From assembly GCF_022458985.1 (NCBI RefSeq), contig NC_061789.1, positions 20,130,357 through 20,194,356 on the forward strand: DNA of 64,000 nt, written 5' to 3'. The notes below the pieces were generated by a model. That model worked only from the letters and a program-made list of their open reading frames with translations, did no database searches and was not told the origin of the DNA. Positions 6,278 through 64,000 of the stretch are shown here, one piece after another. The first letter of the stretch is position 1. The number at the start of each line of letters is the position of its first letter. The translations under genes and the position numbers were made by a program. This stretch comes from Mugil cephalus (Eukaryota > Chordata > Actinopteri > Mugiliformes > Mugilidae).

Positions 6278-8340
<2,063 letters not shown>

Positions 8341-20105: not shown

Positions 20106-21260
20106 CCTCAATTGATACTCAAGGACAACCCCATAACAGAGCACCTCCCACCTCCAGCTGATGTGGAGACATAACTTGACATTCAACACAGTGGAGCATT
20201 ACAAACAAACAAACAGGAATGGAGCAGGAATCTAAACACACAATAATGTCACCGAACTAACGCTGGAGTAGTAAATATGTGGCCTCGGGGTCTGATAATC
20301 AGCCGAAAGAAAGACACAAACATCAGCTCCTTCTACGGCTGTTGCTTTCTGAATTAAACTTTCATAAGAGACACAATGGGCTCTTTCTTTGGCCAACACA
20401 GTCAAAGAATAGAGCGTGGTTGAGTCACGTGATTATCGCCTGAGACAGCATGTTAGTTTCAGTTTTTTGAGGAGTGCAGTGCAATGCAGTTACTGCTGCA
20501 CTGCACTGCACTGTGCTCCATTAATATGACGTCTTTGCTGGTCATTTCATGCCAATTGTGAAATTCTCAAAAGTTTTGAGAATCTTGGAGGCCCTCATAG
20601 GCCCAGTCATCCATCAACAGATTTCCTCACCCTTTACATGTCATTTATAAGGAAAAATTAGTTTTGAAGACTTTTAGTTTTTCTTGAGTTCACAAAGCAA
20701 GACCACTGCCTATGTCTCTTTCCCACGCTTACCTATAAGGGATTTTCTTAACCCTCTACCTCACTGTTCATTTCAGTTTGCAACCATCCTCCTCCTCATC
20801 CCCCTTTTCTTTTCAAATCTTACTTACCAATATTTAGTTGGGTCAGAAGTTTAAAGCAGTATGCTTGTAAAGAATAACACTGATAAAATGGTAAGCGAAC
20901 AAACAAAATTTGTAACAGGGCAGTGGTGAACTGCTGTGATTTGAGAAAACAGCATTTTTTATTTTTTTTTAAATTACATTTTCAGAAAACAAAACACGTC
21001 CACCTTTGGCCTTTATAGTTTTATTCCAGTGTTCAATCAATCCTGCATCTAAAATAAATAAAACGTTTGACAAAAGAAAATGTGTTTGGACGTGCGTATT
21101 TCCTACAGCACTTGAAGGCAACACCAGGAAATCCGTTCTGAATAGCTGTGAAGCCATTTACCACCCAGCCGGGACTTTTCCCACTTTGCCAGCTCTGTAA
21201 ACAATATCTGGCCTTGAACTGGTTAACTTCGAAAGTGGGCATGTCTCAACCTACTGAGGA
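20106..21260. other. Intergenic, upstream of ApoL gene A
   Basis: No gene is seen. It contains the hairpin listed at 20473-20512 and AT-rich sequence. From about 21170 the sequence becomes alignable with the regions in front of genes B and C (for example TTAACTTC...GGGCATGTCTCAACCTACTGA), marking the start of the duplicated promoter module. Confidence 0.5.
20473..20512. repeat. Inverted repeat (17-bp arms)
   Basis: The arms AGTGCAGTGCAATGCAG (20473-20489) and CTGCACTGCACTGCACT (20496-20512) pair with one mismatch around a 6-nt loop. The arms are themselves made of a TGCAG/CTGCA-type short repeat, so the structure may simply be a degenerate tandem repeat. Confidence 0.7.
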
Positions 21261-21268
21261 GGACAAAA

Positions 21269-21280
21269 GGAAACGAAACT
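21269..21280 (+). promoter_or_regulatory. IRF/ISRE-like element of ApoL gene A
   Basis: GGAAACGAAACT holds two GAAAC half sites spaced by one base less than a perfect ISRE (GAAANNGAAAC). It occupies the same place, about 140 bp before the start codon, as the better-matching elements in front of genes B and C. Confidence 0.5.
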
Positions 21281-21418
21281 AAAGCTACGTGTGTTCCACC
21301 CAAGCTCTCTAGGTGGGGTTTTAGTTATTTTAAGCGAGTCGGTTTCCAATCAGTTTTCAGTTTATACAGGTGAAGTTGAAACCTCAATAAGGAGTTTAAG
21401 ACTGCACGAGTGGAGGGC

Positions 21419-24400
21419 ATGATGTCTCCAACAAGGTAAAGTTTCAATGTGTATCACTTTCTGCAATAAGAGAAGTAATACGTTCTTATTCGTTGCCTAT
21501 GATGTCTTTGTGCAAGATGTATAACTAGTCTCACTTCACAGCCAGTGAGGTGTAGTTACAGCTGCAAACTTGTAAATTGGAGTTTGCTTTAAAAGCATGT
21601 TATAATATTTATATATATATATATATATATCTATAAGAAATTCTCTTCATAAAAATGTTAGACTGGACGCAAATTCTCACGGGAGCATACCTGTGTTCCC
21701 CGGGTTCCTAACCCTAACCCTTTTTTTTTTTTTTTTTTTTTTTAAAAAGGGTCCTATGTTCCCCGGTCACATACAAAGCAGGGAACATAGGACCCGGGAA
21801 ACATAGGGATGATCCCAGTTCTCACATTTATTTTGCCAAAACTCTCAGGGAGGACAGAGCTGGCAGTGTCAGACAATGGGCCTATGATGTCTAACCTGTT
21901 CAACGGGAAAATCAACAGGAGGGCAACTAAACTAGACTAGATTGGCACATTGTACTACCACCTGCAGCCCACTTAATAGTTGCCACTTATCAGTTGAGCA
22001 ATTTGGGACTTAAAACTAATTCAAATAAAGATAAAGTGACTACTCACAATAAGAGCAGAGTACGATTACAGGGCTGCTGAAATATAATTATCTGACTGGA
22101 AGGGCAAAAGTTCACAGGATCTATGCAAATCTAAAGAGGCTATTACTATGTTTTAGTGTGATCATACTCAAGGCTCAGTTAGATCACATTGTATACAAAA
22201 AAATAAAAAATACAAAAAGAAAGAACCTCATATTACTGTCATATTGAATTAGGTAGAAAAAAACCCAAAACATTTTCTTTTCCCCGCTGGCTGGTTTCCA
22301 CCAAATATCTCCAATGGGTAAATCTTTGATGACCTCTAGTAACTTTACTGTATGTGAACTAAACAGTGAAAATTATTAATCATTTTACAAAAAGCAAACT
22401 TCAGATAAGATAACGTTGTAAGTTGGCGACACCTGCTGGCCAGACCATATAAATGCATTATTTGTTTTTACACCAAACGTGGAGGACATTTATTATGAGG
22501 ACTGTCCTGCAGAGCTGTGCATCCCAAATGTGAAGTCAAGTGAAGCACTTTGTTTTCAAAAACATGTTTCTCTGTAACTTTCCACCAAGAACAAGTATTT
22601 ATTGTCTGTTTATTGTATTGTTTGGAAATCTCTCAGATTTCTCAGAAAGGAACTCCAAGAGGCTTTGTGCCACTACACCACAGATACTCTCACCTACATC
22701 CATACAGTGAGAGGATTCTGTGAAGGGTCCTCCAAATGGATGCTCAGGAGGGGGACAGAGTTAGACATGATGACGGACATCAAAGACAGGGTTGATAAAA
22801 TCAGCCTCACCATCAGTCATGTTACAGAGTCAGAATCCAAAGGTACAGCCTTAAAAGAATATTTGGAGAACAAGTTCACACAGGTGACTGCAGACCGCAG
22901 GCGTGCCGAGCTGGAAAAGGAGCTGGATGAAGTGTTGAAGGACACTCTGGAAGGTCTGGAGAAGCTCGACTGCTTCCTGGATGCAGTGGAGAAGCTGGCT
23001 GTTACCTCACTGCACGTGTTCACGGAGAACCAGGTGTTACGCCTCCCCAAAGAGATCAGCATTGATCTTGTTCAGGTTGTCATCAATGCTGCACGACTAG
23101 TCTGCCCTCTTCTCCTGGACTTTAAAAGAGATGCAAACGTCTTCTTCACTCCCAAACTTCAGAATGTTGACGTGCTGGCATATCAACTGGACAGATACAT
23201 ACAGACCACCACCATAATCTGTGAGAAGTTGGAGAAAAGGTAAATTGACTTTTAGATACTAAAGTCATTTTGCACAGTAAACATCTTACTCTGTAGAAAA
23301 TAAATTATAACTAAAGTTTTTCACAGCTGCTTTAGTGACTTTTGCCTGAAGACGACCTCAGAAACTGTGGTAGACCTCGATGTAGATTTGTCTGAACACG
23401 ACTCACGAACGATGCTTGATCACATCACTCAGCTTAATGAAATCAGGTGAGTTTTAACATAGTATATGTTTGGCCCAAAAATGGTCTACATACTGCAGAG
23501 CCCCGGAGGCAGTTTGGATGCTTACTCAGGGCATCTCAGCCAGGGGATGCAAACATTCTGTCCTAAAGCTGCCTCTACTGCTCCTCCTGCCACCTCTACT
23601 GCCACCATGATATAACATGTATAGTGTAGAGCACCGGTGTCAAACAGAAGGCCCGCGGGCCAAAAGCGGCCCGCCAGAGGGTCTGATCTGGCCTGTGGGA
23701 TGAATTTGCAAAGTGCAAAAATGGCATCGAAGACATTAACTGCAAATTTTCCAAGAAAAGTAACCACTTTTTCAAGGTTTCACACAAGTTTAGCAAGAGC
23801 TGTGGACATACCACAACATTGAGACGTACAGAAATTGCACTTCTTTTTCTCAAGAAACATCTGTTTTTTTAGAAAAGATTTTGTAATGGAGCAATTCATT
23901 AAACGTAAACACTTTCATGATGTACTTGTTTGTGCTAAAACAAAAGGAAACATTTGAAGTTGTCATTATTTCAAGGTCTGGCCCCCCTGAGATCATATTG
24001 CCCCTGAACTAACATGAGTTTGACACCCCTGGTGTAGATCATAGGTGTTCAACAGGGGTTCTGTGACCCCTAGGGGCTCTGCAGAGGTACTGCAGGGGGT
24101 CACAAAGTAATTGCTGGATTAGACATTTTTATGTATTTTTTTAATCTTCTCCCATAAATTTAAAATCTGTTAAATACACATTAACATGAATCCAACATAT
24201 TTTAGTAAAAGCATAAGGGATAGCTTAATATTGAATTCAACATGATAATAATAATGCATATTTATAAATAGCACTAGTCTGAGATTACTATAGAACACAT
24301 ACAGTAGGTAGGAGGTCCCTACTTAATCTTGCAAAATCTTTGGTTGATTAGACATTTATATATATATATATCTTTAATCTTCTCCCACAAATTTAAAGAG

Positions 24401-25749
24401 AGCTTATTCAGTCCCCAGGCGAAGTCCCATGTATCTATGTATGTTTATATGAGGTATGTTTATGTTTATGGCAGTTGCATTGCTGCCCATACACATGTTT
24501 GAAATAAAATAAATGAATATTTGGACTTGTGCAATGTTTGAATAGCTTAATATTGAATGCAAAATGATAATAATAATATATATTTGTAAATAGCACTAGG
24601 CAGAGTTTAATATAGAACACATATAGTAGGTAGGGGGTCCCAACTTAATCTCTTCATCAGTTTGGTCCTTGACCTGAAAAATGTTGAAGATCCCTGGTTT
24701 AGTGTATCTCAACAACCACCAGATGAATTTCATGCCAACACACTTGTCTCTTACGAAATTAATTATAATCACTTTTTTCTTCTGTCAGGGAGGACCAGAA
24801 CTTTCGAATGGTCTTCTTGTTCCAAGAGGAAATGTGTTCTGTCTTCATCAATGAGTTCAACAAGCGGCAGCCCAGGATGCTGCAATTTCTGAACGAGCTG
24901 GAGGAGACAGCTGTTCAGCTAGATAGGATGAATAAGGGGGCAAAGATCTCCAGTGTGGCAGGTAGCTCAGTGGGGGCAGTTGGAGGTGTGCTGTCCATTG
25001 TTGGTTTGGCATTAATTCCTTTCACAGCAGGAGTGTCTTTAGCTTTGACAATGACTGGCGTAGGGCTGGGAATCACCAGTGGAGTCAACAGTTTAGTCAC
25101 CACTGCAACAGAGGTTGGAGTTAATGCTACACAACAAAAGAAAGCCAGTGCAGTCTTTGAGAGCTTCATGGAAGATGTGCAGCGTCTCCAAGATTGTGTG
25201 GAGGAGGTGACCAAGCAAACAATCTCAAGACTAGAAGCAAATATGGTAGATGTGGCTGTGGGAGTAGGCAGGATTGCTGTTAAGGTTGGTAGTATTGGAA
25301 AAGGTATTGATTCCATTGTTGATGCTGCCTCCGCTGTTAAGCTGTTAAAAAGTGAAGAACTCATTTCCAGTGCTGGTAAAGTGGTGGCTCAGGAGGGAAA
25401 GGCCTTACGTAATGTGCCCAGGGTTGCCGCAGATATCCCAGATATTGGTCAGGCTGCAGTCAAAGGGCCACTTGCCCTCACCAGGTCAGCCAGAGCTGGT
25501 TTCATTGCTCTGAATGCTCTCTTCCTTGGCATGGATATATTCTTCATATGTAAAGACAGCATCGGTCTGGCCAAAGGCAGCGAGGCTGAAGTCTCACAGT
25601 TTATCAGAGCCAGAGCTGCACTTTGGAGCTCTGAGATGGACTCATGGGAGAAGATCCACGATTGTCTGAACAAAGGTCTGCTAACATCAGGGAAAAAGAG
25701 TGCTGTCCTAGAGACACGATTTTATCAGGAGCAGAGTTTGGGAGACTAA
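21419..25749 (+). CDS. Apolipoprotein L-like protein, gene A
   Basis: Four coding exons: 21419-21435, 22646-23239, 23327-23446 and 24789-25749. All have GT/AG borders and matching phases, giving 1692 nt (563 residues). The first exon carries only ATGATGTCTCCAACAAG; its AG joins the A of exon 2 to give Arg. Residues 6-243 form a predominantly helical, fish-type N-terminal region with no domain I recognise. Residues 244-563 are the ApoL domain: a glycine-rich hydrophobic hairpin at about 296-353 (SVAGSSVGAVGGVLSIVG, later TMTGVGLGITSGV), a helical linker, and a second hydrophobic segment at about 481-498 (IALNALFLGMDIFFIC). Human ApoL proteins with this core are intracellular or secreted membrane-active, interferon-induced proteins; the function in fish is inferred. 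No signal peptide is seen. Intron 3 holds two hAT-like insertions. This gene has the longest last exon of the array. Confidence 0.85.
21609..21630. repeat. (TA)n microsatellite
   Basis: A short TA array in intron 1 of ApoL gene A. Confidence 0.9.
21680..21825. repeat. Small inverted-repeat element with poly-T centre
   Basis: GGGTCCTATGTTCCC and GGGAACATAGGACCC face each other around a short spacer (about 21749-21793), preceded by an 18-plus poly-T run and a further TGTTCCCCGGG copy. It looks like a small foldback or MITE fragment inserted into intron 1 of gene A; the corresponding part of gene B lacks it. The element borders are approximate. Confidence 0.55.
23632..24031. mobile_element. Non-autonomous hAT-like element 1 in intron 3 of gene A
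   Basis: A 400-bp element with terminal inverted repeats CACCGGTGTCAAAC and GTTTGACACCCCTG. The ends begin CA and finish TG. An 8-bp duplication flanks it: GTGTAGAG at 23624-23631 and GTGTAGAT at 24032-24039, 7 of 8 matching. The GGCCCGCGGGCC stretch just inside is typical of a widespread vertebrate hAT MITE family. No transposase is encoded. Confidence 0.85.
24040..24696. mobile_element. Non-autonomous hAT-like element 2 in intron 3 of gene A
   Basis: It begins directly behind the right duplication of element 1 with CATAGGTGTTCAACAGGGG and ends TTGAAGATCCCTG, followed by GTTTAGTG, a relative of the same 8-bp target. Inside, a segment of roughly 230 bp (TAATCTTCTCCCA through GGTAGG) is present twice, at about 24140-24320 and 24373-24640. 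AT-rich, with no coding capacity. Confidence 0.7.
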
Positions 25750-26581
25750 CTATATCTGATCACAACGAAGCAAAAATTAAAGAAAGCTGATGTCACAGCT
25801 GGTATTGATCATTGACTATATAAAGATGGATGGCAGAGGAGCTCTTCTAAAGTGAAGTCAAAGCAAGTAGAGCTCCCCCTGGTGACTGACAACAGTATAG
25901 GTCATATGCTCCACCCCTTTCATGTTAGTGGATGGAAGTTGGGCCAAACTAATATTCTTCAAGGATGGAGTCAGATAGTTAATATAATGCTGATACATGT
26001 TCAAGTGTCATTTTTCTGAGAATTTTCGTTTTATTTAGTTATTTGATGCTATAGGAACATTTATATATAACTGGTGGCGGTAGAGCAGACCATATTAATT
26101 AAATGAAAATGAAAGTAAGCCTGGAGGAAGAGTAGGTGGGTCATTGATATCATGACTCCACTGTCAGACTGTACTCTGACTCCAAAATTGCAAGAGGAGG
26201 GCCCATAGCACCTGAAAAATAGCCTCATTTCGGTCAATTCAAGGAAGTGGTATAAATATGGACAATGCGTCCACTGTCCATATTTATACAGCTTATGGTA
26301 TTGATCATGCAGCTGTGCCTTTAGCCATCTTTAACTACTCATTTTGTCAAATAAACATGAGCTTTGATAAATGACCAGTTGCACTCATTAAATTGAAATT
26401 GTTCCATTGTAAGTTCTTCATTTCCTTATGTTTATTCATTTCTTTCATATATATATATTTTTTATTTTAGTTTTAATAATGTACATCACAGCGACTTTTT
26501 GGCTCTTTTTGTGTATAAGTGAATTTCGTTGTACAGATCACTTCATTTTGTTAAAAGTACATTGTTGTCACTAATTGAAAG

Positions 26582-26587
26582 AATAAA
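26582..26587 (+). terminator. Probable polyadenylation signal of ApoL gene A
   Basis: AATAAA in the context GAAAGAATAAAGTGTTTGTG. It is kept at the equivalent place behind genes B and C, implying a 3'UTR of about 830 nt. The 3'UTR contains a SINE-like repeat (about 25805-25990, ATAAAGATGGATGGCAGAGG). Confidence 0.6.
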
Positions 26588-26599
26588 GTGTTTGTGAAA

Positions 26600-28500
26600 A
26601 ATACATCTCGTTTTGTCTTCTTAGAATGAATGTCATTTGATGAATGCGCTTTAAAAAAAAAAGCATGGCAGGTTGTTTTTATTATTTATTTTTACTCACA
26701 TTCCATCCTTTCTTTTCAGCAATTGTCTGTGGCATAGAGGCACCATGAAGTTGAATGAATTACTTTAAATGTCCAGGGTTCTGATGGTGACGTCCTTTGA
26801 GAGTTTAATTCACTGGTTCCCCTTCTGAGGTTTGTGGGTTTTAAAGTCTTCGGATGAGATCAGTACATGAAGCATTTATCAATACCAAGTATACGAACTT
26901 CAGAGTGGTATGCTTTGTAGTTTGGACATGACAAGTTTGTTTTGTGAGTACAGAGGACTGTCATCCTCCCCCGTCCATGGCAGGGGTGCCCTAAGCAACC
27001 ACATAACCCCCAGATTGCTCCCCGGGCATAGCTCCCTTGGAGGCTGCAGCCCACTACTCCAACTGTACACACTACTGTGTGAACAAAGGGATGGGTCAAA
27101 TAGCAGGATTGTATTTCTCATGTGGGATCAATACAGCATAATTATAATTATTCTGGATTTGGAACAGCAGCACACTTTAAATGCATCCTGGCTGTCTCAC
27201 GTCTAGATTTCCTTCCGATCATCCATCCTCAGTGTAACAGATAGTTCAAGTACACATCAGAATCAGAATCAGAAAAGACCTTTTTGACAAGTATATTTGT
27301 GTCTTGGTGTTTGTTACATGAAAATATAGAACAAGATAAGATGAAATTAAACGTAGACATACACAAAAAATATACAAAATATAGAAAAATATATTCACTG
27401 TACAATACAACAAAAGGCATGGTGGTGCGTTTCATGTGTTCATGAGGAGCCCTGGCTTTGGACTGCAGCCACCTGTCAGAGGGGAGTCTGGCATACGGCC
27501 ATTTGGACTGTATTTAGCTAAATGCATATTTTGAACTGTAACAGTTATTGGTGATGTTTCAAAGAACACAAATACAAAGACCCTAAAAGTCGAAAAAAAA
27601 AATACCCATAGTTGAACAAAGGAAATGGTGAATGAAAAACAAAAACAGAAAGACAGGAACACATCCTGGGATACCTGGCGGTCCAGTGCCTAAATTACCT
27701 CCTGACCATCCATCCTCATTATAACAGGTAGTTCAAGTACACATACAGGCATTTGAACTGTATTTAGCCAGATGCGTACTTTTAACTGTAACAGTTATAA
27801 ACAATGTTTCAAAAGAACACAATGAAAGTTAAAAACACCCTCAAACACCCTGTAGATTTAAGCTACAAAGGAAGTGGTAAATGAAAAAGAAACACAGGAA
27901 GCATGTGATGAACAAAGCAGCGACGTGGCCTCCTAGTCTGGAGGCTTCCTGTTATGTGTGCTTCATCATGCAGGTGTAATCGGGTGTGGTATCAGTGTGA
28001 TCTCTGTGGGTTTGAACTGATTTTTTAGAAAAACAACTGCTAATGTTCAACACATTGTGTATTGTCTCAAGTGATATATAGAATGTGAATGATCCACAGG
28101 ATCTCACAATTTTCAATTCTAATCACTTAAGTGTGTGACTTTCTATTATCCAGAACAAGGATTAGCCACTTGCTGGTTTAAGGTGGTCACAAGAACAACA
28201 CAAATATATACAGTTCATAACAACAAACCATTAGCTAGGCTAATTGTATCTAATTACTGACATAGTCAGTAGCTGACCACTGGTCTGCTGGTTGGTTGTC
28301 CAGTTGGACCTGGCTTCTAAGGGAGTTTTGCCTTAGATCATGGCACAAGGGATTGTAACATCTCATCCTGTGTATTAATGAATATGAACATAACAACAAA
28401 AATGTCTGGTTATCACTAATAGCTGTAAATGCCAGTGAACACTGTACACAGGACTTTTCCAACTGTGCCAGTTTTGCAAACAATGGCTTTCCGTGAACTA
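26600..28500. other. Intergenic between ApoL A and B: repeat relics
   Basis: No gene is seen. The stretch 26930-27170 carries a SINE-like block (GCAACCACATAACCCCCAG, GCTCCCCGGGCATAG) that recurs behind genes B and C, so it predates the gene duplications. The stretch 27255-27420 is a minus-strand LINE 3' tail (CAGAATCAGAAAAGACC, GTGTCTTGGTG). Confidence 0.55.
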
Positions 28501-28542
28501 GTTAACTTCAGAAATGGGCATGTCTCAACCTACTGATGAGGA

Positions 28543-28553
28543 GAAAGCGAAAC
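28543..28553 (+). promoter_or_regulatory. ISRE of ApoL gene B
   Basis: GAAAGCGAAAC fits the interferon-stimulated response element core GAAANNGAAAC exactly and lies 158 bp before the start codon of gene B. The surrounding 150 bp align with the regions before genes A and C. Confidence 0.65.
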
Positions 28554-28710
28554 AAAGCCTACCTGAGTGCTACCCAAGTTCTCCACTCAGCAGAAGTTTA
28601 GTTATTTCTTTCTAAGCGAGCTGCGTTCCAATCAATTTTCATTTTTATTTTATTAATACAGGTGAAGTTGAAACCTCAATTAGGGGCTAAAGACTGCACA
28701 AGGGGAGGGC

Positions 28711-31700
28711 ATGATGTCTCCAGCAAGGTAAAGTTTCAATGTGTATCACTTTCTGCAATGAGAGAAGTATTAGGTTCTTATTAACAGCGTATGAGGTGTA
28801 ATTACAGCTGCAAACTTGTAAATTGAAGTTGACTTTAAAAGTATGTTACAATATTTTTTTATTAAGAAATTGTCTTGATAAAAATGTTGTCTGGCATTCG
28901 TTGACATTTATTTCCAGTAGTGGTGCACCTGCCAGTGGTCCTCTCAGGGAGGGTGTCGAACTTGTTCAATGTGAAAATCAACAGGAGGGCAACTAGACTA
29001 CACTAGATTGGAACATTACAGTACCCTGCAACCCACTCAATAGTTACCACTTATCAGTTGAGCAGTTTGGACTTAAAACTACTTTAAATAAAAAATAAAC
29101 CAACTACTCACAATCATCTTATTCATTTTAGATTCATTAAGATTAGATTCAGCTTTACTGTCAATGTACAGTACAGAGCTGCTGAAATATAATTATCATC
29201 TACCCGAAAGTGCAAAGCTTTACAGGACTTATGCAAATCCAAAATGAAGAGACACTGTAGCTGGCAATGTGCTATTACAATGTTTTAGTGTGGTCATACT
29301 CATGGCTCAGTCAGATCACACTGCAGAATCTGCACTTTGCCGGAAAAAAAGGAAGCCTCAATATGAAAATCTATCACTGACTGACAGGTAGCCACTGTGT
29401 TGAATGAGGTAATACAGTAATTTTACTGTATATGGCCTAAACAGTGTATGTCATGAGTTGGAACTGAAGCTCTGTCACCTCATCAATAAACAATGGTAAC
29501 ATAATGCCTCTGGCAACAAATTGATCTTTAATATGGTTAAATATAAATATATAAATATAAAATAATTGTACCATCTTTGTAAAAAAAAAAAAATCTTATT
29601 TTACAATATGTCCTATAATACTGCAAAAATGTGTTAAAACAGTATGTAAAACATTGCCTTTGGATGACAAAAAAATACGCTTTAAGATAACATTGTGCGT
29701 TGGCGACATCTGCTGGCCAGACCATATAAATTAAGTTTTTGTATTTAAACCAAACATGGAGGACACAAACTGCAATAATCAACAGAAAATAAATCAATGC
29801 GCAATTAACTCAACAATAATAATTATAATTAAAAATAAATGTAGGAATTAAATAATTGGTAAAAAAAAAAAATACCCAAAAATGTTTATTTCTCTTGTAA
29901 TTTGGATCTGTATTGTTGTTTTAATTCCCCGTTCTTATTTTCCCTAACTTAATTGTCCGTTTAATAAGTTTGATTCACTGTAAGCTTTATTTGTTTACAA
30001 ATGTATCTTTAAAAATCAGTCTGTTTTAACATATGCATTTAATCTGAACTCTCTGAGGGATTCAAATGTGCCCTTTAAAAAAAGAAACATCCAATGTGAG
30101 GACTGTCCTGCAGAGCTGTGCACTCCAAATGTGAAGTCAAGTTAAGCACTTTGTTTTCAAAAACATCACTGCTTTTAATGTTTCTCATTTGTTTGGAAAT
30201 ATCTCTTGCAGAAAGGAACTCCATGAGGCTTTGTGCCACTACACCACAGATACTCTCACCTACATCCATACAGTGAGAGGATTCTGTGAAGGCTTCTCCA
30301 AATGGATGGACAGGAGGGACACAGAGTTAGACATGATGAGGGACATCAAAGACAGGGTTGATAAAGTCAGCCTCACCATCAGTCATGTTTCCCAGTCAGA
30401 ATCCAAAGGTAAAGCTTTAAAAGAATATTTAGAGAACAAGTTCACACAGGTGACTGCAGACCGCAGGCGTGCAGAGCTGGAAAATGAGCTGGATGAAGTG
30501 TTGAAGGACACTCTGGAAGGTCTGGAGAAGCTCGACTGCTTCCTGGATGCAGTGGAGAAGCTGGCTGTCACCTCACTGCACGTGTTCACGGAGAACCAGG
30601 TGTTACGCCTCCCCAAAGAGATCAGCTTTGATCTTGTTCGGGTTGTCATCACTGCTGCACGACTAGTCTGCCCTCTCCTCCTGGACTTTAAAAGAGATGC
30701 AAGAGTCTTCTTCTCTCCCAAACTTCAGAATGTGGATGTGTTGAAATATCAACTGGACAGATACATGAAAACCACCAAGAAGATGTGTGAGAAGTTGGAG
30801 AAAAGGTAAACTGTTCGTTAACCACACATTCTGCTCTTTAATCTAATGTTGCAAAAAAGAAACAGGAACATCTCCCAGAATTGTGTCTTCCACAGCTGTT
30901 TGAGTGACTTTTGCCCGAAGCTGACTGAGAAACCTGTGATAGATGTGAATGTGGAATTACCTGAAGATGAGATGCAGAGGATGCTCCATCACATTAACCA
31001 TCTTCATGAAATCAGGTAAGTTTTCTTTTTTGCACATATTTGTATTTAATGTATTTCTATTCTGCCCCTCAGCCTATTTTATTTTTTTACTTTAATTCAC
31101 ACAGTCAGTGCGTTTACATGCACGTGAAATAAACAAATTATTGCCTTAATCGGACTATAACAGGAGAACTTAAGTGCATATAAACACGTCACTCCAATTA
31201 AAATCAGAGTTCTCATTAGCCGATTAAGACACCCAGATAATGCCATTGGAATTCGATTTTCTCCGGCATGTACACGCTGAACCGGACTTTTTAATCGGAT
31301 AATGCGTGTGTGCATGCTCCACAACCGCTGCATTGGCATGTGACCCCGGAACAAAAACATCCAAGAAAGTCAGTCGCAGAAGAAGGTCAACAGAGCCGGT
31401 AGATGAACTGTCTGACGCTATCTGCACCAGAAGTAGTGCGCACATTACGTACGAGATTTCAAAAATGTACTATTATCATCCATCTGGTTGTTGTTCGAAA
31501 TGCCGGTCTAGGACTCTTGTTTATTATATGACGTAGTTGGTCAACTGGAAAATGGGCCATATTAATGAGGTATTAACCCGCTGAAAAGACACATATCGGA
31601 GGACATGTTTGCATGAGTTATTCGATTTTCTCCGTTGCATGTAAACTGGGACAAGGACTGCAGTCAGAAAGATGAATTTTGAGCATAGCTCGATTAAGCT

Positions 31701-33189
31701 CTGCATGTAAACACACTGACTGTGTCATTGTTGTGCTGAATTTATTCTGTTGTAAGATTTAAAAGTAACAGGGTGGATGGATGGGTCTACAAAACACTGG
31801 ACTTGATGGTTTTGACTATCACGGTTTCATAACTTTACTGACCTTGTTTATTTGAACCCAAACCATGATATAGCCAGTTAAAACTAAAGGTGACAGTAAT
31901 GTACTAAGGCGTAGAACTAAATTCTCCCAAATGGTCTTATCTGTAAAAGGAACACTTTACCATCTGTAAAAGGAACAATTTACCATCACACATCAAAATA
32001 ATAATAATAGCAATAGTAATAATAATAATAATAATAATTGTTATTATCAATTTTTATAGCTAAACCTAACAGTGGCCAATAATCAAAAACCAATCCTCAC
32101 CCAAAAGAAAAGAGCAAACTTTTGAAAGACTCTTGGTAAAGAAAAGAGCCATAACTCCTGATTCATTGCAAAGATCTATAATTCCAATAGCTAAAATCTA
32201 TTTTAATAAATAAATAAAATTATTTAAGCAATCAAACCAGTACAAATATATATATTTTTTTCTTCAACAGGAAAGACCAGAACTTCTGTACAGTCTTCTT
32301 GTTCCAGGACGTGGCTTGTTCTGATTTCATCCGTGAGTTTAACAAGCAACAGCCCAGGATGCTGCACTTTCTAGAGAAGCTGGAGGAAGCTGCTGTTCAG
32401 CTAGACAAAATGAAAAAAGGATCAAAGATCTCTAGTGTGGCAGGCAGCTCAGTGGGCATGCTTGGAGGTGTGCTGTCCATTATTGGTTCGGTGTTAATTC
32501 CTGTAACGGCAGGAGCGTCTTTAGCTTTGACAATGACTGGTGTAGGGTTTTGTGTCACCAGTGCAGTCAACAGTGCTGTCACGACAGCAGCTGAGGTTGG
32601 AGTCAAACGTAAACAACAAAACAAAGCTAAGGAAGCCTTCCAGAGCTTCATGGAAGATGTGCAGCGTCTCCAAGATTGTGTGGAGGAGGTGACCAAGCAA
32701 ACAACCTCAAGACTAGAAGCAAGTAAGTTAGATGTGGCTGTGGGAGTAGGCAAGATTGCTGTTAAGGCTGGTAGTATTGTAAAGGGTGTTGATTTCATTG
32801 TTGATTCTGCCTCTGAACTCATTTCCATTGTTGGTAAAGTGGTGGCTCAGGAGGGAAAGGTATTACGTAATGTGCCCAGGGTTGCCGCAGATATCCCAGA
32901 TATTGGTCAGGCTGCAGTCAAAGGGCCACTTGCCCTCTCCAAGTCAGCCAGAGCTGGTTTCATTGCTCTGAATGCTCTCTTCCTTGGCATGGATATATTC
33001 TTCATATGTAAAAACAGCATCAGTCTGGCCAAAGGCAGCGAGGCCAAAGTCTCACAATTCATTAGAGCCAGAGCTGCACTTTGGAGCTCTGAGATGGACT
33101 CATGGGAGAAGATCCACGATTGTCTGAACAAAGGTCTGCCAGCATCAGAGAAAAAAAGTGCTGTCCTAGAGACACCGTTTTATCAGTAG
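28711..33189 (+). CDS. Apolipoprotein L-like protein, gene B
   Basis: Four coding exons: 28711-28727, 30212-30805, 30896-31015 and 32271-33189. Phases match gene A, total 1650 nt, 549 residues. The start MMSPARKELHEAL is assembled from the 17-nt exon 1 and exon 2. The N-terminal helical region is very close to that of gene A. The ApoL hairpin has small changes (IIGSVLIPVTAG, GVGFCVTSAV). Two differences shorten the last exon: an in-frame loss of eight codons before the GKVVAQEGK segment, and a GAG to TAG change at about 33187 that removes the last six residues present in gene A. Intron 3 carries a 621-bp MITE. The gene appears intact and, given its ISRE, is probably interferon-regulated. Confidence 0.85.
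31102..31722 (+). mobile_element. MITE with ends CAGTCAGTG/CACTGACTG in intron 3 of gene B
   Basis: A 621-bp element whose first and last 21 bp are inverted repeats with one mismatch (CAGTCAGTGCGTTTACATG at the left). The D-group genes have the uninterrupted sequence ATTCACAGAGTCTGTCATTG at this place, a natural empty site. A second copy lies reversed at 41234-41832. No transposase is present and the target duplication could not be fixed, so the superfamily is open. Confidence 0.8.
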
Positions 33190-33349
33190 CAGAGTTTGGG
33201 AAACTAACTGAATCTGATCACAACAAAGCAAAAATTAAAGAAAGCTGATGTCACAGCTGGTATTGATCATTGACTATATAAAGATGGATGGCAGAGGAGC
33301 TCTTCTAAAGTGAAGCCAAAGCAAGTAGAGCTCCCCCTTGTGACTGGCA

Positions 33350-33690
<341 letters not shown>

Positions 33691-33759
33691 TAAGCTCCAC
33701 CCCCTTCATGTTAGTGGATGGAAGTTGGGCTGGTAGAGCAGACCATAAGACCATATTAT

Positions 33760-34195
33760 CTCATGTCATCTTCTTCTACCACTTATCCTCACTGGGGTTG
33801 CGGGGGTTGCTGGAGCCTATCCCAGCGGGGATATTGCAGGGCTAACACAGAGACAAACAACCATTCACACTCACACCTAGGGTCAATTTAGGGTGAGCAT
33901 GTCTTTGGAGGTGGGAGGAAACCGGAGTACCCGGAGAAAACCCACGCAGACACAGGGAGAACATGCAAACTTTACCCAGAAAGACACTAACCTGGACTGA
34001 ACCTGAACCTCACAGTGCCGCCCCAGACCGTATTAATTAAATGACAACTGAAGTAAGTCTGGAGAAAGAGTAGGCAGGTCATTGACCTTGCTCTGGAGGT
34101 TGCAGGCTGGTTTTTGTGAAGCGTCTTGAGACGATTTGTATTGTTATTGGCGCTATATAAATAAAACTGAATTGAATTGAATTGAATTGATATCA
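33760..34195 (+). repeat. Two fish LINE 3'-end fragments
   Basis: The stretch 33760-33985 contains the common fish repeat reading ATTCACACTCACACCTAGGG, GTGGGAGGAAACCGGAG and GAGAACATGCAAAC. The stretch 34085-34195 ends GTCTTGAGACGATTTGTATTG, GGCGCTATATAAATAAAA and a (TTGAA)n tail, typical of an RTE-like 3' end. Both are transposon scraps in the 3' region of gene B. Confidence 0.7.
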
Positions 34196-34490
34196 TGGCC
34201 CCACTCTCGGACTGCACCAATCAGACTCTCGTTGCAAGATGGCAGCGTCCCTATCGCCCAGACAATAGCATCATTTTGGCCAATTCAAGGAAGTGGGGAA
34301 TTATTGTCCATGAGCTTTGATAAATAACCAATCGCACTCAATAAATTGAAATTGTTCCATTCTAAGGTCTTCATTTCTCTATGTTCATTCATATATATAT
34401 ATACTTCATGGCTCATTTTGTGTACAAGTGAAATTCGTTGTACAGATCACTTCCTTTTGTTAAAAGTACATTGTTATCACTAACTGAAAG

Positions 34491-34496
34491 AATAAA
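34491..34496 (+). terminator. Probable polyadenylation signal of ApoL gene B
   Basis: AATAAA in GAAAGAATAAACTGTTTGTG, at the position equivalent to the signals of genes A and C. Confidence 0.55.
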
Positions 34497-35191
34497 CTGT
34501 TTGTGAAAAATATATCTCAATTTTGTCTTCTTGGAATGAATGTCATTTGATGAATGCGCTTAAAAAAGCTTGGCAGGTTGTTTTTATTATTTATTTATAC
34601 TCATGTTTGATCCTTTCTCTTCAGCCATTGTCTGTGGCATAGAGACAGTGAAAGTCTTGGGATGAGTACTGATACTTTATAGTTTGGACATGACAAGTTT
34701 GAATTGTGAGTACAGAGGATGGTCATCCTTCCCCATCCATGGCTGTGTTGCCCTGAGCAACCACATAACCCCCAGATTGCTCCCTGGGTGCGGCCCTCTT
34801 AGAGGCTGCAGCCCACTGTTCCAACTGTACACACTACAAAGTGAATGATTGGATGGGTCAAATACCAGGATTATATTTCCCCAGGGAGGATCAATATATG
34901 AACTTGGAACAGCAGCATACTTTAAATGCGTCCTGGGATACCTGGCTATCCAAAGTCTAAATTACCTCCCCATCATCCATCCTTAATATAATTGGTAGTA
35001 CACATACGGGCATTTGGACTGTATTTAGCTAGAAGCTTATTACGAACTGTAACATTTATTGGTGATGTTTCAAAAGAACACAGCGACAGGTTTAAGCCAT
35101 AAAGGACTTGAGTCATGCCCTCCTAGTCTAAAAGCTTCCTGTTACCTTATGTATCTTCAGATATGGGTGTGTCTCAACCTACTGATGAAGA

Positions 35192-35202
35192 GAAAGGGAA
35201 AC
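35192..35202 (+). promoter_or_regulatory. ISRE of the first gene C promoter copy
   Basis: GAAAGGGAAAC fits GAAANNGAAAC and lies 155 bp before the ATG of the first copy of exon 1. Confidence 0.6.
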
Positions 35203-35356
35203 CAAACCAAACCTACCTAAGTGCCACCCAAGTTCTCTGCTAAGCAGGGTTTTAGTTATTCCTTTTCTAAGCGAGTTCCAGTTTCAGTCAGTTTTCAGTT
35301 TATACAGGTGAAGTTGAAATCTCAGTAAGGACCTAAAGACTGCATAAGGGAAGGGC

Positions 35357-35373
35357 ATGATGTCTTCAGCAAG
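35357..35373 (+). other. Extra copy of ApoL coding exon 1
   Basis: ATGATGTCTTCAGCAAG followed by the donor GTAAAG, identical to the exon 1 at 38094-38110. It could serve as an alternative first exon for gene C (exon 2 at 42310) or be left over from the duplication. Confidence 0.6.
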
Positions 35374-36349
35374 GTAAAGTTTGAATGTGTATCACTTTCT
35401 GCAGTGAGAAAAGTATTAGGTTCTTATTATCAGCTTGTGATGTCTTCATGAAAGGTGTGTCACTATTCACCTTGATAATCATAATCATTCAGGTGCAACA
35501 GGTTACAGCTGAAAACTTGTATGTTGATGTTGACATTAAAAACGTGTTGTAAGATCTTTATAAGAAATTGTCTTCATATAAAATGCGAAAATGAACAGAA
35601 GGCCAATTAGACTACACTAGATTGGCACATTACAGTACCACCTGCAACCCACTAAATAGTTACCACTATCAGTTGAGCAGTTTGGACTTAAAACTACTTA
35701 AAAAAAAAAATAAACTAACTGCTCAAAATCATCTGATTCAGTTTAGATTCATTTAGATTAGACTGAACTTTACTGTCAATGTGTAAAGTCCAAGTAAGGA
35801 GCTGCTAAAATTGAATTATCATCTACCTGGAAGTGCAAAGGTCTACAGGATTTATGTAAATCTAGAATAAAGAGGCACTGTAGCTGGCAATGTGCTATTA
35901 CAATGTGTTGGTGTGATCATACTCATGGCTTAGTCAGATCACATTGTAGAATCTGCAATTTGTGAAAATAAAAAAAATAAATAAATAAATAAAAAAATGA
36001 AAGCCTCAGTATGAGAATCTACTCACTATCATATCACCGTCATATTGAATAAGGTAGAAACTGGCTGGTTTCCACCAAATATGTCCAATGGATAGACCCC
36101 TGTTGACCTCTAGTAACTTTAATGTATGTGGACTAAACAGTGTAAAATTGTTTCTCATTTCGCAAAAACCAAACTTCACAGGACCTTTTTTTACTTAACA
36201 TTTAATCATGTCATGAGTTGAAGCGCATAATTAGAGAGTTTCTTCTGTTACTTCATCAATAAACAGTGTTAATGCCACTGGGAACAAATAGATTTTTAAT
36301 TTGGTTAAATATTAAGTCATTGTACAAATCATTTGGTTCAGTACCTCAC

Positions 36350-37840
36350 AGTTTTTTATGGGAAGCTTTTGATTTTTTTTAGAGTCCCAGGCAGTATCAA
36401 AGGTCTAGTCAAAGCATATTTTGCAGATGTACAGCTCTGCTTTGCCACAGTGGAGTACACTACAGCATAGCAGCAGCTGGAGGTAGACATTATGGAAGGG
36501 TGTACAATCTCGCCACTAGCCTTTACAATGGACGCGATTATTAGGGCCTGAAATGGGTGGTAGATGGAGAAAAGCTGCATGGAGGGCTTTGTCCTCCCCC
36601 CTACATGGATGACATGATGACTGTGACGTCAACTGCTCCATGTACTACCAGACTGCTGCATAAGTTAAACAGCAACTTGCAGTGGGCTAGGACGAAAGTG
36701 AAGCTGAGTAAGTCTAGGAGTATCTCAGTTGTTAAAGAAAAGGTAGTAGATAAGAGATTTATCATAAATGATGAGGTGGTTCCCGCAATACTAGAGAAGC
36801 CAGTGAAGAGTCTGGGAAGGTGGTAAGATGTAAGTCTTAGTGATAAAACGCAGTTCGAAGGATTGAGGCAGGAAATGATTCAAGGTATTTCGAGTATAGA
36901 CCGGTGTCGAAGGAGGATTTTTTCCTCTCCTTCAGCCCAGGATCTTCATACCTTTTGGAAAGGATAGTCCATCTATGCACAAAACATGCGACAATTTCTC
37001 ACTTTTAGGTTATTTATTTGGCACACAGAGAATAGGTATTGATTCGGCGCTGAGACTTCAGCCTATCCATCTTAGAAAAAAACAAAGCCCCTATCTAAGC
37101 ATACACAGTGGTCTTGTTCTAGCTAGACTCCACCCATAGACAAAGGAAGTATTCAGTAGTTTTCCATGTGTAACTGGTATCCAACGTGTGAGATATCAGG
37201 GTGAGGTGTACCCTAATCACTTGAGCAAGCTGCAGCAAACCAATGGACCACTCCTTATATGGTGAGGTAGCGGAAGTAACATACACAGGCTCAAAGCCTT
37301 CTCAAGCCCTTTAAAACCCAACACCAGTCAGGGCACCCAGGAAAGTTATGGTGTTTGCACTTTGGATTATTGCCCTGACTAATGTGGTCACTGACAATGT
37401 ATGAGGTTCCTCTGTCAAAGGTTGAGAAGCTTGAAAGGATGATTAATTCATCAGGAGATGGCTTGGTGTCCCACCCTGCTTAAGCACGCAGCCTTGTATG
37501 GGAAAGGCATAATGGAGCTCCCAGTAACTGGTCTAATAGAGGAGTTTAAGTGTGCTAAGGCTGGACTGGAGATGACTCTCACTCAGTCGAAAGATCTAGT
37601 AGTTAGGTGTACAGCCCCCATGGATAAAACGGGGAGGAAGTGCAGTCCGAGAGATGTGGTTCAGGAAGCACAGGCCGCATTCAGGCTTATGGATATCATA
37701 GGTCATGTACAGTAAGGACATGGAGGCTTGGGGCTGTATGCAGGGAAACCTCTGTGGAGCAAGGCATCAGTAGCAGAAAAAAGGAAGATGGCCATGGAGG
37801 AACTTCATAGATGAACTACGGCAGTGTCACTGGCTAAGCA
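36350..37840 (+). pseudogene. Reverse transcriptase relic (copy 1) in gene C 5' region
   Basis: Plus-strand pieces of a LINE-type reverse transcriptase: PPPYMDDMMTVTSTA near 36600 (YMDD-like box), WARTKVKLSKSRSISVVKEK near 36700, EKPVKSLGRWYDVSL-like near 36800. Further on come EVPLSKVEKLERM near 37410 and MELPVTGLIEEFKCAKAGLEMTL near 37510. Frameshifts and stops separate them. The clade is not assigned. Confidence 0.75.
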
Positions 37841-37929
37841 AGGACTTGAGTCATGCCCTCCTAGTCTGAAAGCTTCCTGTTACTTCATGTAACTTCAGAT
37901 ATGGGTGTGTCTCAACCTACTGATGAAGA

Positions 37930-37940
37930 GAAAGGGAAAC
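37930..37940 (+). promoter_or_regulatory. ISRE of the second gene C promoter copy
   Basis: GAAAGGGAAAC fits GAAANNGAAAC and lies 154 bp before the ATG at 38094. This is the promoter copy nearest to exon 2 of gene C. Confidence 0.6.
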
Positions 37941-38093
37941 CAAACCAAACCTACCTAAGTGCAACCCAAGTTCTCTGCTAAGCAGGGTTTTAGTTATTCC
38001 TTTTCTAAGCGAGTCGAGTTCCAGTTAGTTTTCAGTTTATACAGGTAAAGTTGAAATCTCAGTAAGGAGCTAAAGACTGCATAAGGGGAGGGC

Positions 38094-41000
38094 ATGATGT
38101 CTTCAGCAAGGTAAAGTTTGAATGTGTATCACTTTCTGCAGTGAGAAAAGTATTTGGATTCTTTTTATCGGCTTGTGATTTCTTCATGAAAGTTGTGTCA
38201 CTATTCACTTTGATATTCATAATCATTCAGGTGCAACAGGTTACAGCTGAAAACTTGTATATTGATGTTGACATTAAAAACTTGTTGTAAGATCTTTATG
38301 AGAAATTGTCTTCATATAAAATGCGAAAATGAACAGAAGGGCAACTAGACTACACTAGATTGGCACATTACAGTACCACCTGCAACCCACTAAATAGTTA
38401 CCACTTATCAGTTGAGCAGTTTGGACTTAAAACTACTTTAAATAAAAAAATAAACCAACTGCTCACAATCATCTGATTCAGTTTAGATTCATTAGACTGA
38501 ACTTCACTTTCAATGTGCAAAGCCCGAGTACGGAGCTGCTAAAATTGAATTATCATCTACCTGGAAGTGCAAAGGTCTACAGGATTTATGTAAATCTAGA
38601 ATAAAGAGGCACTGTAGCTGGCAATGTGCTATTACAATGTGTTGGTGTGATCATACCCATGGCTTAGTCAGATCACATTGTAGAATCTGCAATTTGTGAA
38701 AATTAATTTAAAAAAAAAAAAAAAAAAATGAAAGCCTCAGTATGAGAATCTACTCACTATCATATCACTGTCATATTGAATTAGATAAAAAAAAAACATT
38801 CTTTTCCCCACTGGCTGGTTTCCACCAAAATATGTCCAATGGATAGACCCCTGTTGACCTCTAGTAACTTTAATGTATGTGGACTAAACAGTGTAAAATT
38901 GTTTCTCATTTAGCAAAAAACAAACTTCACAGGACCTTTTTTTACTTAACATTTAATCATGTCATGAGTTGCAGCTGAAGCGCATACTTAGAGTTTCTTC
39001 TGTTACTTCATCAATAAACAGTGTTAATGCCACTGGGAACAAATTGATCTTTAATTTGGTTAAATATTAAGTCATTGTACAAATCATTTGGTTCAGTACC
39101 TCACAGTTTTTTATGGGGAGCTTTTGATTTTTTTAGAGTCCCAGGCAGTATCAAAGGTCTAGTCAAAGCATATTTTGCAGATATACAGCTCTGCTTTACC
39201 ACAGCGGAGTACACTACAGCATGGCAGCAGCTGGAGGTAGACATTATGGAAGGGTGTACAATCTCGCCACTAGCCTTTACAATGGACGCGATTATTAGGG
39301 CCTGAAATGGGTGGTAGATGGAGAAAAGCTGCATGGAGGGCTTTGTCCTCCCCCCTACATGGATGACAGTCATCATGACTGTGACGTCAACTGCTCCATG
39401 TACTACATGACTGCGGCATAAGTTAAACAGCAACTTGCAGTGGGCTAGGACGAAAGTGAAGCTGAGTAAGTCTAGGAGTATCTCAGTTGTTAAAGAAAAG
39501 GTAGTAGATAAGAGATTTATCATAAATGATGAGGTGGTTCCCACAATACTAGAGAAGCCAGTGAAGAGTCTGGGAAGGTGGTATGATGCAAGTCTTAGTG
39601 ATAAAACGCAGTTCGAAGGATTGAGGCAGGAAATGATTCAAGGTATTTCGAGCATAGACCAGTGTCGAAGGAGGATTTTTTCCTCTCCTTCAGCCCAGGA
39701 TCTTCATACCTTTTGGAAAGGATAGTCCATCTATGCTCACTTTTAGGTTATTTATTTGGCATACAGAGAATTGGTATTGATTCAGCGCAGAGACTTCAGC
39801 CTATCCATCTTAGAATAGAAAAAAGCCCCTATCTAAGCATACACAGTGGTCTTGTTCTAGCTAGACTCCACCCATAGACAAAGGGAATATTCAGTAGTTT
39901 TCCATGTGTAACTGGGTGAGGTGTACTCTAATCTCTTAAGCAAGCTGCAGCAAACCAATGGACCACTCCTTATATGGTAAGGTAGCGGAAGCACAGGCCA
40001 CCCTGAGGCTTATGGATATCATAGGTCATGTACAGTAAGGGCATGGAGGCTTGGGGCTGTATGCAGGGAAACCTCTGTGGAGCAAGGCATCAGTAGCAGA
40101 AAAAAGGAAGATGGCCTTGGAGGAACTTCATAGATGAACTACGGCAGTGTCACTGGCTAAGCAAGGACAGTGGGTGAACTGGGAGAGTGTAGATAAAAGG
40201 AAAGTTGAAGTGGAGAGAGCTGTGGCTAGGCCAGTTAGCTGGTGTCTTCTAGTGTTTTACTTCCAATTTTGTCAGAGGAGAGAGATGTTGGTTGAAGTGT
40301 AGTTGCATGTCCTATCCCTTCTTACCCAGTACTGTTCACTAGGCTAGTTAGCAGGTGTCTTTTAGTGTTTTACTTCCAATCTTGGCAGAGGGGAGAGGTG
40401 TTGGTTTAAGTGTAGTTGCATGCCCATCACTTCTTACCTGCTGCTGTTGGCTAGGCTTGTTAGCTACTGTCTTCCTGCTGGTTGCTAGTTATTAGCTGAC
40501 TGGTAGCTAGTGTTGGGTCGTTCACGAATGATTTGTTCGAAAGAATGAATCTTTTGAACAAACTGTATCGAATCACTTTATGAAGTGATTCGTTCTTTTC
40601 TCAGTGTAGTTGAACAGAGCTCAGCGCGGCCCGCACGTGCATTCTCTGACTTGTGACTCTTTGTGAAACTTCAGCTATCTGCAGTTAGCCAGCAGATAGC
40701 ACAGGGGGACGGTGCGAGTGTGTGGTGTGAAAGTTATTTCGATATTTGTTTTATATTTTTAAGCTATTTATTTTCTTTTTTATTGCATATTTAAGCCTAT
40801 TTAAGTTTATGTTGACCTCTTATATTTTTAATGCAGGTTCCATCTTTACTTTTTATGTCATTTTCTTGTAATTGATATATTTGTTTTTTTGCACTAAACT
40901 GAACGAGGCCTATTTTTATTTTTGATTGTTAAAATGTGTTAATATGTTAAAATATACAATAGTGTTTGTTTATCCTTTTGCTTTTTATTTATTTTCCACT

Positions 41001-44000: not shown

Positions 44001-44531
44001 CAGCGTCTCCAAGATTGTGTGGAGGAGGTGACCAAGCAAACAATCTCAAGACTAGAAGCAAGTAAGGCTGGTTGCATTGGAAAGGGTGTTGATTCCATTG
44101 TTGATGCTGCCTCTGCTGTTAAGCTGTTAAAATGTGAAGAACTCATTTTCGGTGCTGGTAAAGTGGTGGCTCAGGAAGCAAAGGCCTTGTGTAATGTGCC
44201 CAGGGTTGCCGCAGATATCCCAGATATTGGTCAGGCTGCAGTCAAAGGGCCACTTGCCCTCGCCAGGCCAGCCAGAGCTGGTTTCATTGCTCTGAATGCT
44301 CTCTTCCTTGGCATGGATATATTCTTCATATGTAAAGACGGCATCGGTCTGGCCAAAGGCAGCGAGGCCAAAGTCTCACAGTTTATCAGAGCCAGAGCTG
44401 CACTTTGGAGTTCCGAGATGGACTCATGGGAGAAGATCCACGATTGTCTGAACAAAGGTCTGCTAACATCAGGGGAAAAGAGTGCTGTCCTAGAGACACC
44501 ATTTTATCAGGAGCAGAGTTTGGGAAACTAA
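38094..44531 (+). CDS. Apolipoprotein L-like protein, gene C
   Basis: Coding exons: 38094-38110 (alternative copy at 35357-35373), 42310-42903, 42990-43109 and 43610-44531, giving 1653 nt and 550 residues with the start MMSSARKELQEAL. Exon sizes for exons 1-3 are identical to genes A and B. Intron 1 is unusually long (about 4.2 kb) because it holds an RT relic and a nested pair of DNA transposon remnants. Sequence is closest to gene A (hairpin GSSVGAVGGVLSIVG identical, same GITSGVNSLV). Relative to A, 13 codons are missing in frame from the linker, so RLEASKAGCIGKG replaces a stretch with VAVGVGRIAVKVGS. The C-terminal hydrophobic segment and ARAALWSSEMDSWEKIHDCL are kept. Intron 3 carries a 213-bp hAT-like element. 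Confidence 0.85.
39090..40165 (+). pseudogene. Reverse transcriptase relic (copy 2) in gene C intron 1
   Basis: Same relic as at 36350-37840. A 4-nt insertion follows the YMDD codons (GATGACAGTCATCATG against GATGACATGATG in copy 1), shifting the frame. The part WARTKVKLSKSRSISVVKEK to DLHTFWKG is open at 39435-39725. Confidence 0.75.
40508..41890. mobile_element. hAT-like element remnant, host of a nested MITE
   Basis: The left side (GTGTTGGGTCGTTCACGAATGATTTGTTCG) and right side (TTAGTGATTCGTTCGAAAC) resemble a fish repeat family with GATTCGTTC-rich ends. A further GTGTTGGGTC at 41095 and GTTCGCGAACGGATCAC at 41216 belong to the same type. The CAGTCAGTG-type MITE has inserted into it at 41234-41832. 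No transposase was found; borders are approximate. Confidence 0.45.
41234..41832 (-). mobile_element. Second copy of the CAGTCAGTG MITE, reversed
   Basis: It aligns in reverse with 31102-31722. Shared blocks include GCGGGATAATACC...TTAATATGGCCC near 41360, GAGTAACGTGTTTACATGCTC near 41740 and the right end CATGTAAACGCACTGACTG at 41814-41832. The opposite terminal repeat is not recognisable, so this copy is truncated. Confidence 0.75.
43305..43517. mobile_element. Non-autonomous hAT-like element in intron 3 of gene C
   Basis: A 213-bp palindromic element with ends CAGTGCTGTCCAATTCCGG and CCGGAATTGGGCAGCACTG. The flanking octamers are GTTCAGTG (43297-43304) and GTGTAGTG (43518-43525), 6 of 8 matching. 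It is unrelated in sequence to the two elements in gene A but sits at the equivalent intron position. Confidence 0.8.
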
Positions 44532-46999: not shown

Positions 47000-47310
47000 T
47001 TCATGTAGATGGCCAACAAACCACTAAAGCAGTGTCTCAGAGAAACACACCGTCTCATAAATGACCACATTCATATCACCATGACCTCTATGGTCGTGAA
47101 ATGCTTTGAGAGGCTGCTGTTGACCCAACTGAATCACAGGCCCCTTGCTGGATCCTCTGCTACTGGAAAAACAAGTCAGCAGTGGATGCAGTCAACAAAA
47201 GATTGCACTACATCCTGCAACATCTAGACTATCCAGGGATCCTGTATGTAGACGTCAGCTCCACATACATCCCAGTCATCCCAGAAGGACTCTGTTATAA
47301 CCTTGCGAAG
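47000..47310 (+). pseudogene. Reverse transcriptase relic in unit D1
   Basis: Plus-strand frames read MTSMVVKCFERLLLTQLNHR and, after a frameshift, KSAVDAVNKRLHYILQHLDYPG then YVDVSST. These match the segment before and through the first catalytic motif of jockey-type LINE reverse transcriptases (VVMKCFERL...ALHYILQHLD...FVDFSSAFNT). Copies recur at about 51052-51362 and 55222-55530. Confidence 0.75.
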
Positions 47311-47334
47311 CATTAGATTCAGGATGTCTATAAA

Positions 47335-61733: not shown

Positions 61734-64000
<2,267 letters not shown>

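Follow-up and report, generated by a model that had tools for sequence, protein, structure and literature searches.

ISRE-type elements in a duplicated, probable promoter module before tandem ApoL genes of Mugil cephalus

The window, meaning the whole 64-kb stretch of DNA that was analysed, carries the ApoL genes A, B, C and D. Gene models were built from splice sites, with GT-AG introns and one open frame each, and the ApoL domain PF05461 scored over the curated Pfam cut-off in all four:

21419..25749, + strand, ApoL gene A: exons 21419-21435, 22646-23239, 23327-23446 and 24789-25749; 563 residues; PF05461 7.1e-35
28711..33189, + strand, ApoL gene B: exons 28711-28727, 30212-30805, 30896-31015 and 32271-33189; 549 residues; PF05461 over cut-off
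38094..44531, + strand, ApoL gene C: exons 38094-38110, 42310-42903, 42990-43109 and 43610-44531; 550 residues; PF05461 8.6e-37
35357-35373, + strand, alternative first exon of gene C (C1)
57710..60129, + strand, ApoL gene D, without a listed ISRE form in the 500 bp before its coding start: exons 57710-57762, 57909-58502, 58601-58720 and 59208-60129; 562 residues; PF05461 1.6e-31

Start codons lie at 21419 (A), 28711 (B) and 35357 and 38094 (C), and genes A-C open with a tiny first exon, ATGATGTCT..CA.CAAG. Gene C has two first exons because a promoter-bearing unit of 2.3-2.7 kb was duplicated; the duplicated unit aligns in two pieces, 92.6 and 96.6% identical. Ahead of gene D its 5' exons are repeated twice more, each time without the ApoL-domain exon (47000-60129), with D1 and D2 99.9% identical and D2 and D3 about 98%; copies this close are either a very recent duplication or an assembly artefact. 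The first exon of cacng2 (6278-6604, - strand; best PDB match voltage-dependent calcium channel gamma-2, 7.3e-44) was found beside the array, and human APOL genes likewise lie near CACNG2. Downstream of D, sulfotransferase-like exons were recognised by eye from their translation (61730-63990), the one piece tested giving no Pfam match.

The ISRE consensus takes the form GAAANNGAAAC or GGAAAN(N)GAAACT. The sequence-only reading had placed ISRE-like elements before the A-C first exons at 21269, 28543, 35192 and 37930, and all four were present there on the + strand:

21269..21280, + strand, ISRE of gene A, GGAAACGAAACT, motif start 150 bp from the ATG
28543..28553, + strand, ISRE of gene B, GAAAGCGAAAC, motif start 168 bp from the ATG
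35192..35202, + strand, ISRE of C1 (upstream C first exon), GAAAGGGAAAC, 165 bp from the ATG
37930..37940, + strand, ISRE of C2 (downstream C first exon), GAAAGGGAAAC, 164 bp from the ATG

Exact matches to GAAANNGAAAC were obtained at three of these four window sites (B, C1 and C2), and A carries GGAAACGAAACT. Distances of 139-158 bp to the start codons, as given earlier, hold when counted from the last base of the motif and become 150-168 bp when counted from its start. The conserved module of about 200 bp in which the elements had been said to sit was recovered, the four window modules aligning as homologous copies. Their "fixed place" stands as far as the 150-168 bp go, but it is mostly the product of one module's duplication and is weaker evidence for that; the four elements are not four independent hits because all belong to that duplicated module. 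Further features of the modules are as follows:

21171..21181, + strand, kappaB-like GGGACTTTTCC of A, 248 bp before the ATG
21247..21257, + strand, CAACCTACTGA block 5' of the ISRE of A
21328..21334, + strand, TATA-like TTTTAAG of A, 59 bp past the ISRE start and 31 bp before an Inr-like A (predicted)
28526..28536, + strand, CAACCTACTGA block of B
28611..28616, + strand, TATA-like TCTAAG of B
35109..35115, + strand, AP-1 consensus TGAGTCA of C1
35175..35185, + strand, CAACCTACTGA block of C1
35266..35271, + strand, TATA-like TCTAAG of C1
37847-37853, AP-1 consensus TGAGTCA of C2
37913..37923, + strand, CAACCTACTGA block of C2
38004..38009, + strand, TATA-like TCTAAG of C2

The CAACCTACTGA block lies just 5' of the ISRE and is identical in seven of seven modules or partial modules, counting those of a second cluster on contig C14 (see below). 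Each of the six full modules has a TATA-like box, at a distance of 59-74 bp past the ISRE start and 90-100 bp ahead of the start codon; the boxes of A-C are weak, which counts against the promoter reading, and the two full C14 copies have TATAAG at the position of B's box. An Inr-like TCAGTTT (TCATTTT in B) follows 30-31 bp past the TATA-like box in A, B, C1 and C2, and transcription is predicted to start there. Other short sites, namely GGACTTTTCC (kappaB- or NFAT-like, common to A, B and the C14 gene g26), a GAS-like TTCCGTGAA in B and the TGAGTCA of C1 and C2, were treated as weak evidence.

The conserved stretch could also be read as a small coding exon or upstream ORF with the GAAA repeats as lysine codons, since ATGGG..TCTCAACCTACTGATGAGGAGAAAG.GAAA reads MG-SQPTDEEK-K and conservation begins near an ATG preceded by CAG or TAG in B, C1, C2, g26 and g19. 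By eye, however, 5-bp length differences shift the frame past the motif, A has GTG in place of ATG, no shared GT donor was seen, and the substitutions in the GNG codon are not silent; on these points the coding reading was rejected, and we regard it as very improbable.

Element A had been described as a near match, which undersells it: GGAAACGAAACT is a full classical ISRE, identical to the 12-mer of the human PNPT1 ISRE (PMC9570217). In that source, mutation of the PNPT1 ISRE cut reporter activity by about 60%, and the PNPT1 promoter is noted as earlier reported to be type I interferon-responsive through its ISRE. The same 12-mer is contained in the porcine Mx1 ISRE of a table in PMC3487966. 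How A's form arose depends on an ambiguous alignment of the GAAA repeats: default alignments put a 5-bp gap inside the motif, and an equally simple solution with the C14 copies (partly by eye) has 5 bp duplicated 3' of the motif in C, and GAAAC duplicated in A. On the duplication reading, the leading G of the ancestral motif would have disappeared from A, which would have acquired the Mx1-type form instead.

Genome-wide, 24 ApoL-domain matches were found, and those nearest to the window are five genes on C14. Their exon 4 is 52-65% identical to that of B by tblastn, and 61-72% identical to those of A-C in trimmed alignments (dS 0.30-0.39, dN 0.16-0.23). When module B was searched against the genome as DNA, at least 11 matches came back, four in the window and seven in the C14 ApoL cluster; with these matches all in two ApoL clusters, the module does not look like a dispersed repeat. 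Entire modules precede g26 (L034) and g19 (L037), with GAAAGAGAAAC 162 bp before the ATG, and a second, partial module with GAAAGGGAAAC accompanies g19; g18 (L036), g12 (L033) and g25 (L035) retain only the 3' part of the module, without the ISRE. Exact GAAANNGAAAC is thus present in six of seven modules or partial modules (B, C1, C2, g26, g19 and the g19 partial copy), A being the variant, and when B, C1, C2, g26 and g19 are aligned the motif varies at its second N alone (C, G or A). Counted by gene over both clusters, five of nine (A, B, C, g19 and g26) carry the element at their first exon and four (D, g12, g18 and g25) lack it there. Genes g18 and g19 are 98% identical in exon 4, yet only g19 has the ISRE, which makes the pair a ready natural test; both have an additional GAAANNGAAAC about 2.4 kb past exon 1. 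Within C14, exon 4 (L012, L018, L019, L025 and L026) has dN near or above dS in several pairs (0.06 vs 0.03 for g25-g26; 0.12 vs 0.12 for g12-g19), which points to fast protein evolution of the C14 genes.

A scan of the 24 ApoL loci for GAAANNGAAAC found none, over stretches that reach 1.5 kb past the domain match and so mostly stop short of promoters. When upstream DNA of four distant ApoL genes (L047-L050) was fetched, a reverse ISRE was present in two that are mutual duplicates and in neither of the other two. These two duplicates (L048 and L049, contig C5) belong to a separate tandem set of ApoL-domain genes 3' of kinase-like exons (NEK-like by eye). Their predicted kinase starts lie 686 and 658 bp past the reverse element, GAAAGTGAAACT, and the C5 set may perhaps be kinase-ApoL fusions. 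In a guessed stretch off the exon of the other three C5 copies, one GAAATAGAAAC was found in L051 and none in L052 or L053.

Exact GAAANNGAAAC occurs seven times in the window, against 0.92 in shuffles. Genome-wide, 19,313 sites in 634.8 Mb (both strands) give 1.95 expected per 64 kb, and the Poisson probability of the window's seven is 0.004; the four that are not in modules (9292, 15732, 18623 and 27883) lie away from ApoL first exons. Since the module sites share descent, the fair chance figure is that for one ancestral site, about 0.006 per 200 bp. The 12-mer of A is far rarer, with 58 sites in the 635 Mb genome, one of them in the window, and an expectation of 1.8e-5 per 200 bp. These numbers bear on the possibility that the ancestral module held an ISRE-like string by chance and that duplication copied it without any role. 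All sites being homologous fits such a passenger, and so does the divergence between clusters, where the module differs at 15-19% of sites against 14-20% at fourfold sites (four gene pairs); because the two are equal, there is no excess constraint on the module as a whole. Module-wide purifying selection had been entertained on rough synonymous-site counts (p 0.0009-0.16) and was dropped when the fourfold recount gave no excess conservation. Drift alone would leave the nine fixed positions intact with a rough probability of 0.005-0.105 depending on rate, the 27-bp left flank (tree length 0.25) giving 0.105, the module (0.34) 0.047 and the adjoining intron (about 65 columns, 0.60) 0.0045, in an alignment that was split at the motif and leaves A out, so that the invariance is partly by construction. 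The left flank enters the motif ungapped, and 14 of 318 alignment windows are equally invariant. Against a passenger stand the prior chance of 0.006 for an exact site in 200 bp, the retention of the motif in two clusters on different contigs, and the variant of A, a documented ISRE with so few genomic copies; we consider a passenger unlikely.

On the D side of the window, none of the listed ISRE forms was found within 500 bp before the three D-type coding starts (49533, 53586 and 57710), in agreement with the sequence-only reading that the D genes lack a visible copy, and exact GAAANNGAAAC is absent from the window beyond 37940; a looser GAAAAAGAAA occurs at 46415. Different regulation of D, as had been proposed, fits the absent copy at its first exon. 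The idea that D retains a decayed A-C module was left as unsupported, the best local similarity of its 5' region to the C module being matched by 24 of 1000 shuffles and reached by 19 of 488 window tiles. Remnants upstream of D (46266-46347, 46475-46503 and 46758-46810) might be no more than the tail of the C unit.

For comparison, promoters of other genes were taken from the same genome. A tandem array on contig C8, called ISG15-like on the basis of two ubiquitin-like domains per gene, has eight places, seven of them with both domains. The core GAAACCGAAA is present in seven of seven fetched genes, 289-296 bp before the ATG and 80-81 bp before TATATAAA; the 11-base motif is upstream of none of the seven, the 10-base core being followed by A or G. 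These seven represent one inherited element because the genes are paralogs. The array resembles the ApoL genes in being tandem with an ISRE core upstream of a TATA-type box (spacing in ApoL 59-74 bp); it differs in that the element is in all seven fetched copies as against five of nine ApoL genes, and in that GAAACCGAAA is followed by A or G where the ApoL modules have C. The viperin gene, identified by five exon matches to the viperin model, each under the curated cut-off, has neither the 11-base nor the 10-base form in 1,464 bp before the ATG, and degenerate forms only: CAAACAGAAACTG at -132 (45 bp before TATTTAAG) and, reverse, AAAAACGAAAC at -151. Viperin was discarded as a clean positive control for the strict motif, which was not found there. 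Since the ISG15-like genes and viperin do without it, a gene of this genome need not carry the strict motif to be an ISG.

The 12-mer of A has 57 further copies in the genome; six were fetched, and three of these cluster on contig C15, where the 12-mer lies in reverse 100, 137 and 152 bp before the ATGs of a gene array (G000:C15:24835500-24881500, L054-L056). Two copies encode products of 166 and 169 residues and the third a shorter open frame, with no Pfam or NCBIfam match; the gene, which may resemble fish Gig1, is a candidate ISG. A term search of a fish-ISG review (PMC13030082) did not return Gig1. At the remaining three fetched sites (L057-L059) no ISG was recognised; L059 has a 330-codon reverse open frame.

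The A-C elements are well supported as ISRE-type by their consensus, their rarity, their place before a plausible core promoter, the second cluster and the core shared with the ISG15-like genes. On the same grounds the ISRE part of the earlier interferon-control interpretation stands, and we infer, at one remove, the response of A-C itself. A neighbouring possibility is that the elements are IRF sites and not chiefly an interferon switch, through which IRF1 or IRF8/PU.1 would set basal expression in myeloid or lymphoid cells. The element of A also reads as GGAANNGAAA, the Ets-IRF composite (EICE), which is confined to gene A, being absent in 500 bp before the B, C1, C2 and D starts, and the GGACTTTTCC common to A, B and g26 points the same way. 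B, C1, C2 and the C14 copies, however, have GAAANNGAAAC, the ISGF3-type form, and the spacing from ISRE to TATA-like box resembles that of the ISG15-like array. In favour of basal control, human APOL1, 3 and 6 are mentioned where a review treats the part of IRF1 in constitutive defence (PMC7819612); on balance we consider basal control quite unlikely.

In the preferred account, judging from the sequence, the elements are in all likelihood true ISREs, and genes A-C are most likely inducible by interferon or an IRF. Genes A-C would start from a shared promoter module with a genuine ISRE as its core, where ISGF3 (STAT1/STAT2/IRF9) or an IRF (IRF1, IRF3/7 or IRF8) would bind the GAAA repeats about 90-105 bp upstream of the predicted start. 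The predicted order is then TATA-like box, about 30 bp, Inr-like TCAGTTT, 60-70 bp and ATG. The bound factor would raise transcription of the array, so that several ApoL proteins would be induced together, and these may act on membranes as human APOL1 does. From gene D and three of the five C14 genes, ISRE-less at the first exon, little or no response would be expected. The start of transcription, the factor that binds, the induction and the action of the proteins are predictions here, not direct readings. Fish ApoL genes A-C would in this case probably be part of interferon defence. A wider scenario, in which ApoL interferon control is older than the fish/tetrapod split, the ISRE cassette was gained and lost apart from the gene bodies, and a slipped GAAAC duplication in A restored an ISRE, of Mx1 type, once the ancestral motif had been damaged, is put forward tentatively as a possibility; independence of the cassette is suggested because the sister genes g18 and g19 differ in the ISRE despite their near-identical exon 4.

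In humans, APOL genes have a role in immunity to trypanosomes and in APOL1 kidney disease, which can be promoted by interferon. Should interferon control the fish ApoL arrays, its link with the family would be old and open to study in tandem copies with differing promoters, and because some sister genes have the element and others lack it, the interferon-control reading is easy to test. In stickleback, a region that bears a signature of balancing selection contains two APOL genes, and APOL2 is listed as copy-number variable (PMC2829049, PMC4159527); in catfish, an ApoL1 transcript changed on fasting (PMC3762756). A term search of the main text of the 2026 fish-ISG review (PMC13030082) gave 0 occurrences of apol or apolipoprotein, and no report of fish ApoL interferon induction was among the literature matches listed, which cover subscription journals little. 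Interferon-type control of fish ApoL would be a natural extension of a known kind, not found in print among those matches.

Among known systems, the elements are most like the ISREs of vertebrate ISGs (ISG15, Mx1 and PNPT1), with GAAANNGAAAC or the one-base-spaced GGAAACGAAACT upstream of a TATA-like box, and GAAAGGGAAACCAAAC of C1 and C2 is close to an ISG15-derived probe with GAAAGGGAAACCGAAACT (PMC9907019). They differ in having a kappaB-like (A) or AP-1 (C1, C2) site about 80-100 bp further upstream. Human APOL1, APOL3 and APOL6, compared by domain and gene neighbourhood, share the ApoL domain PF05461 and an array near cacng2; all three are named as targets of IRF1, whose motifs occur in their promoters (PMC7819612), and APOL1 is named a STAT1 target (PMC6156247).
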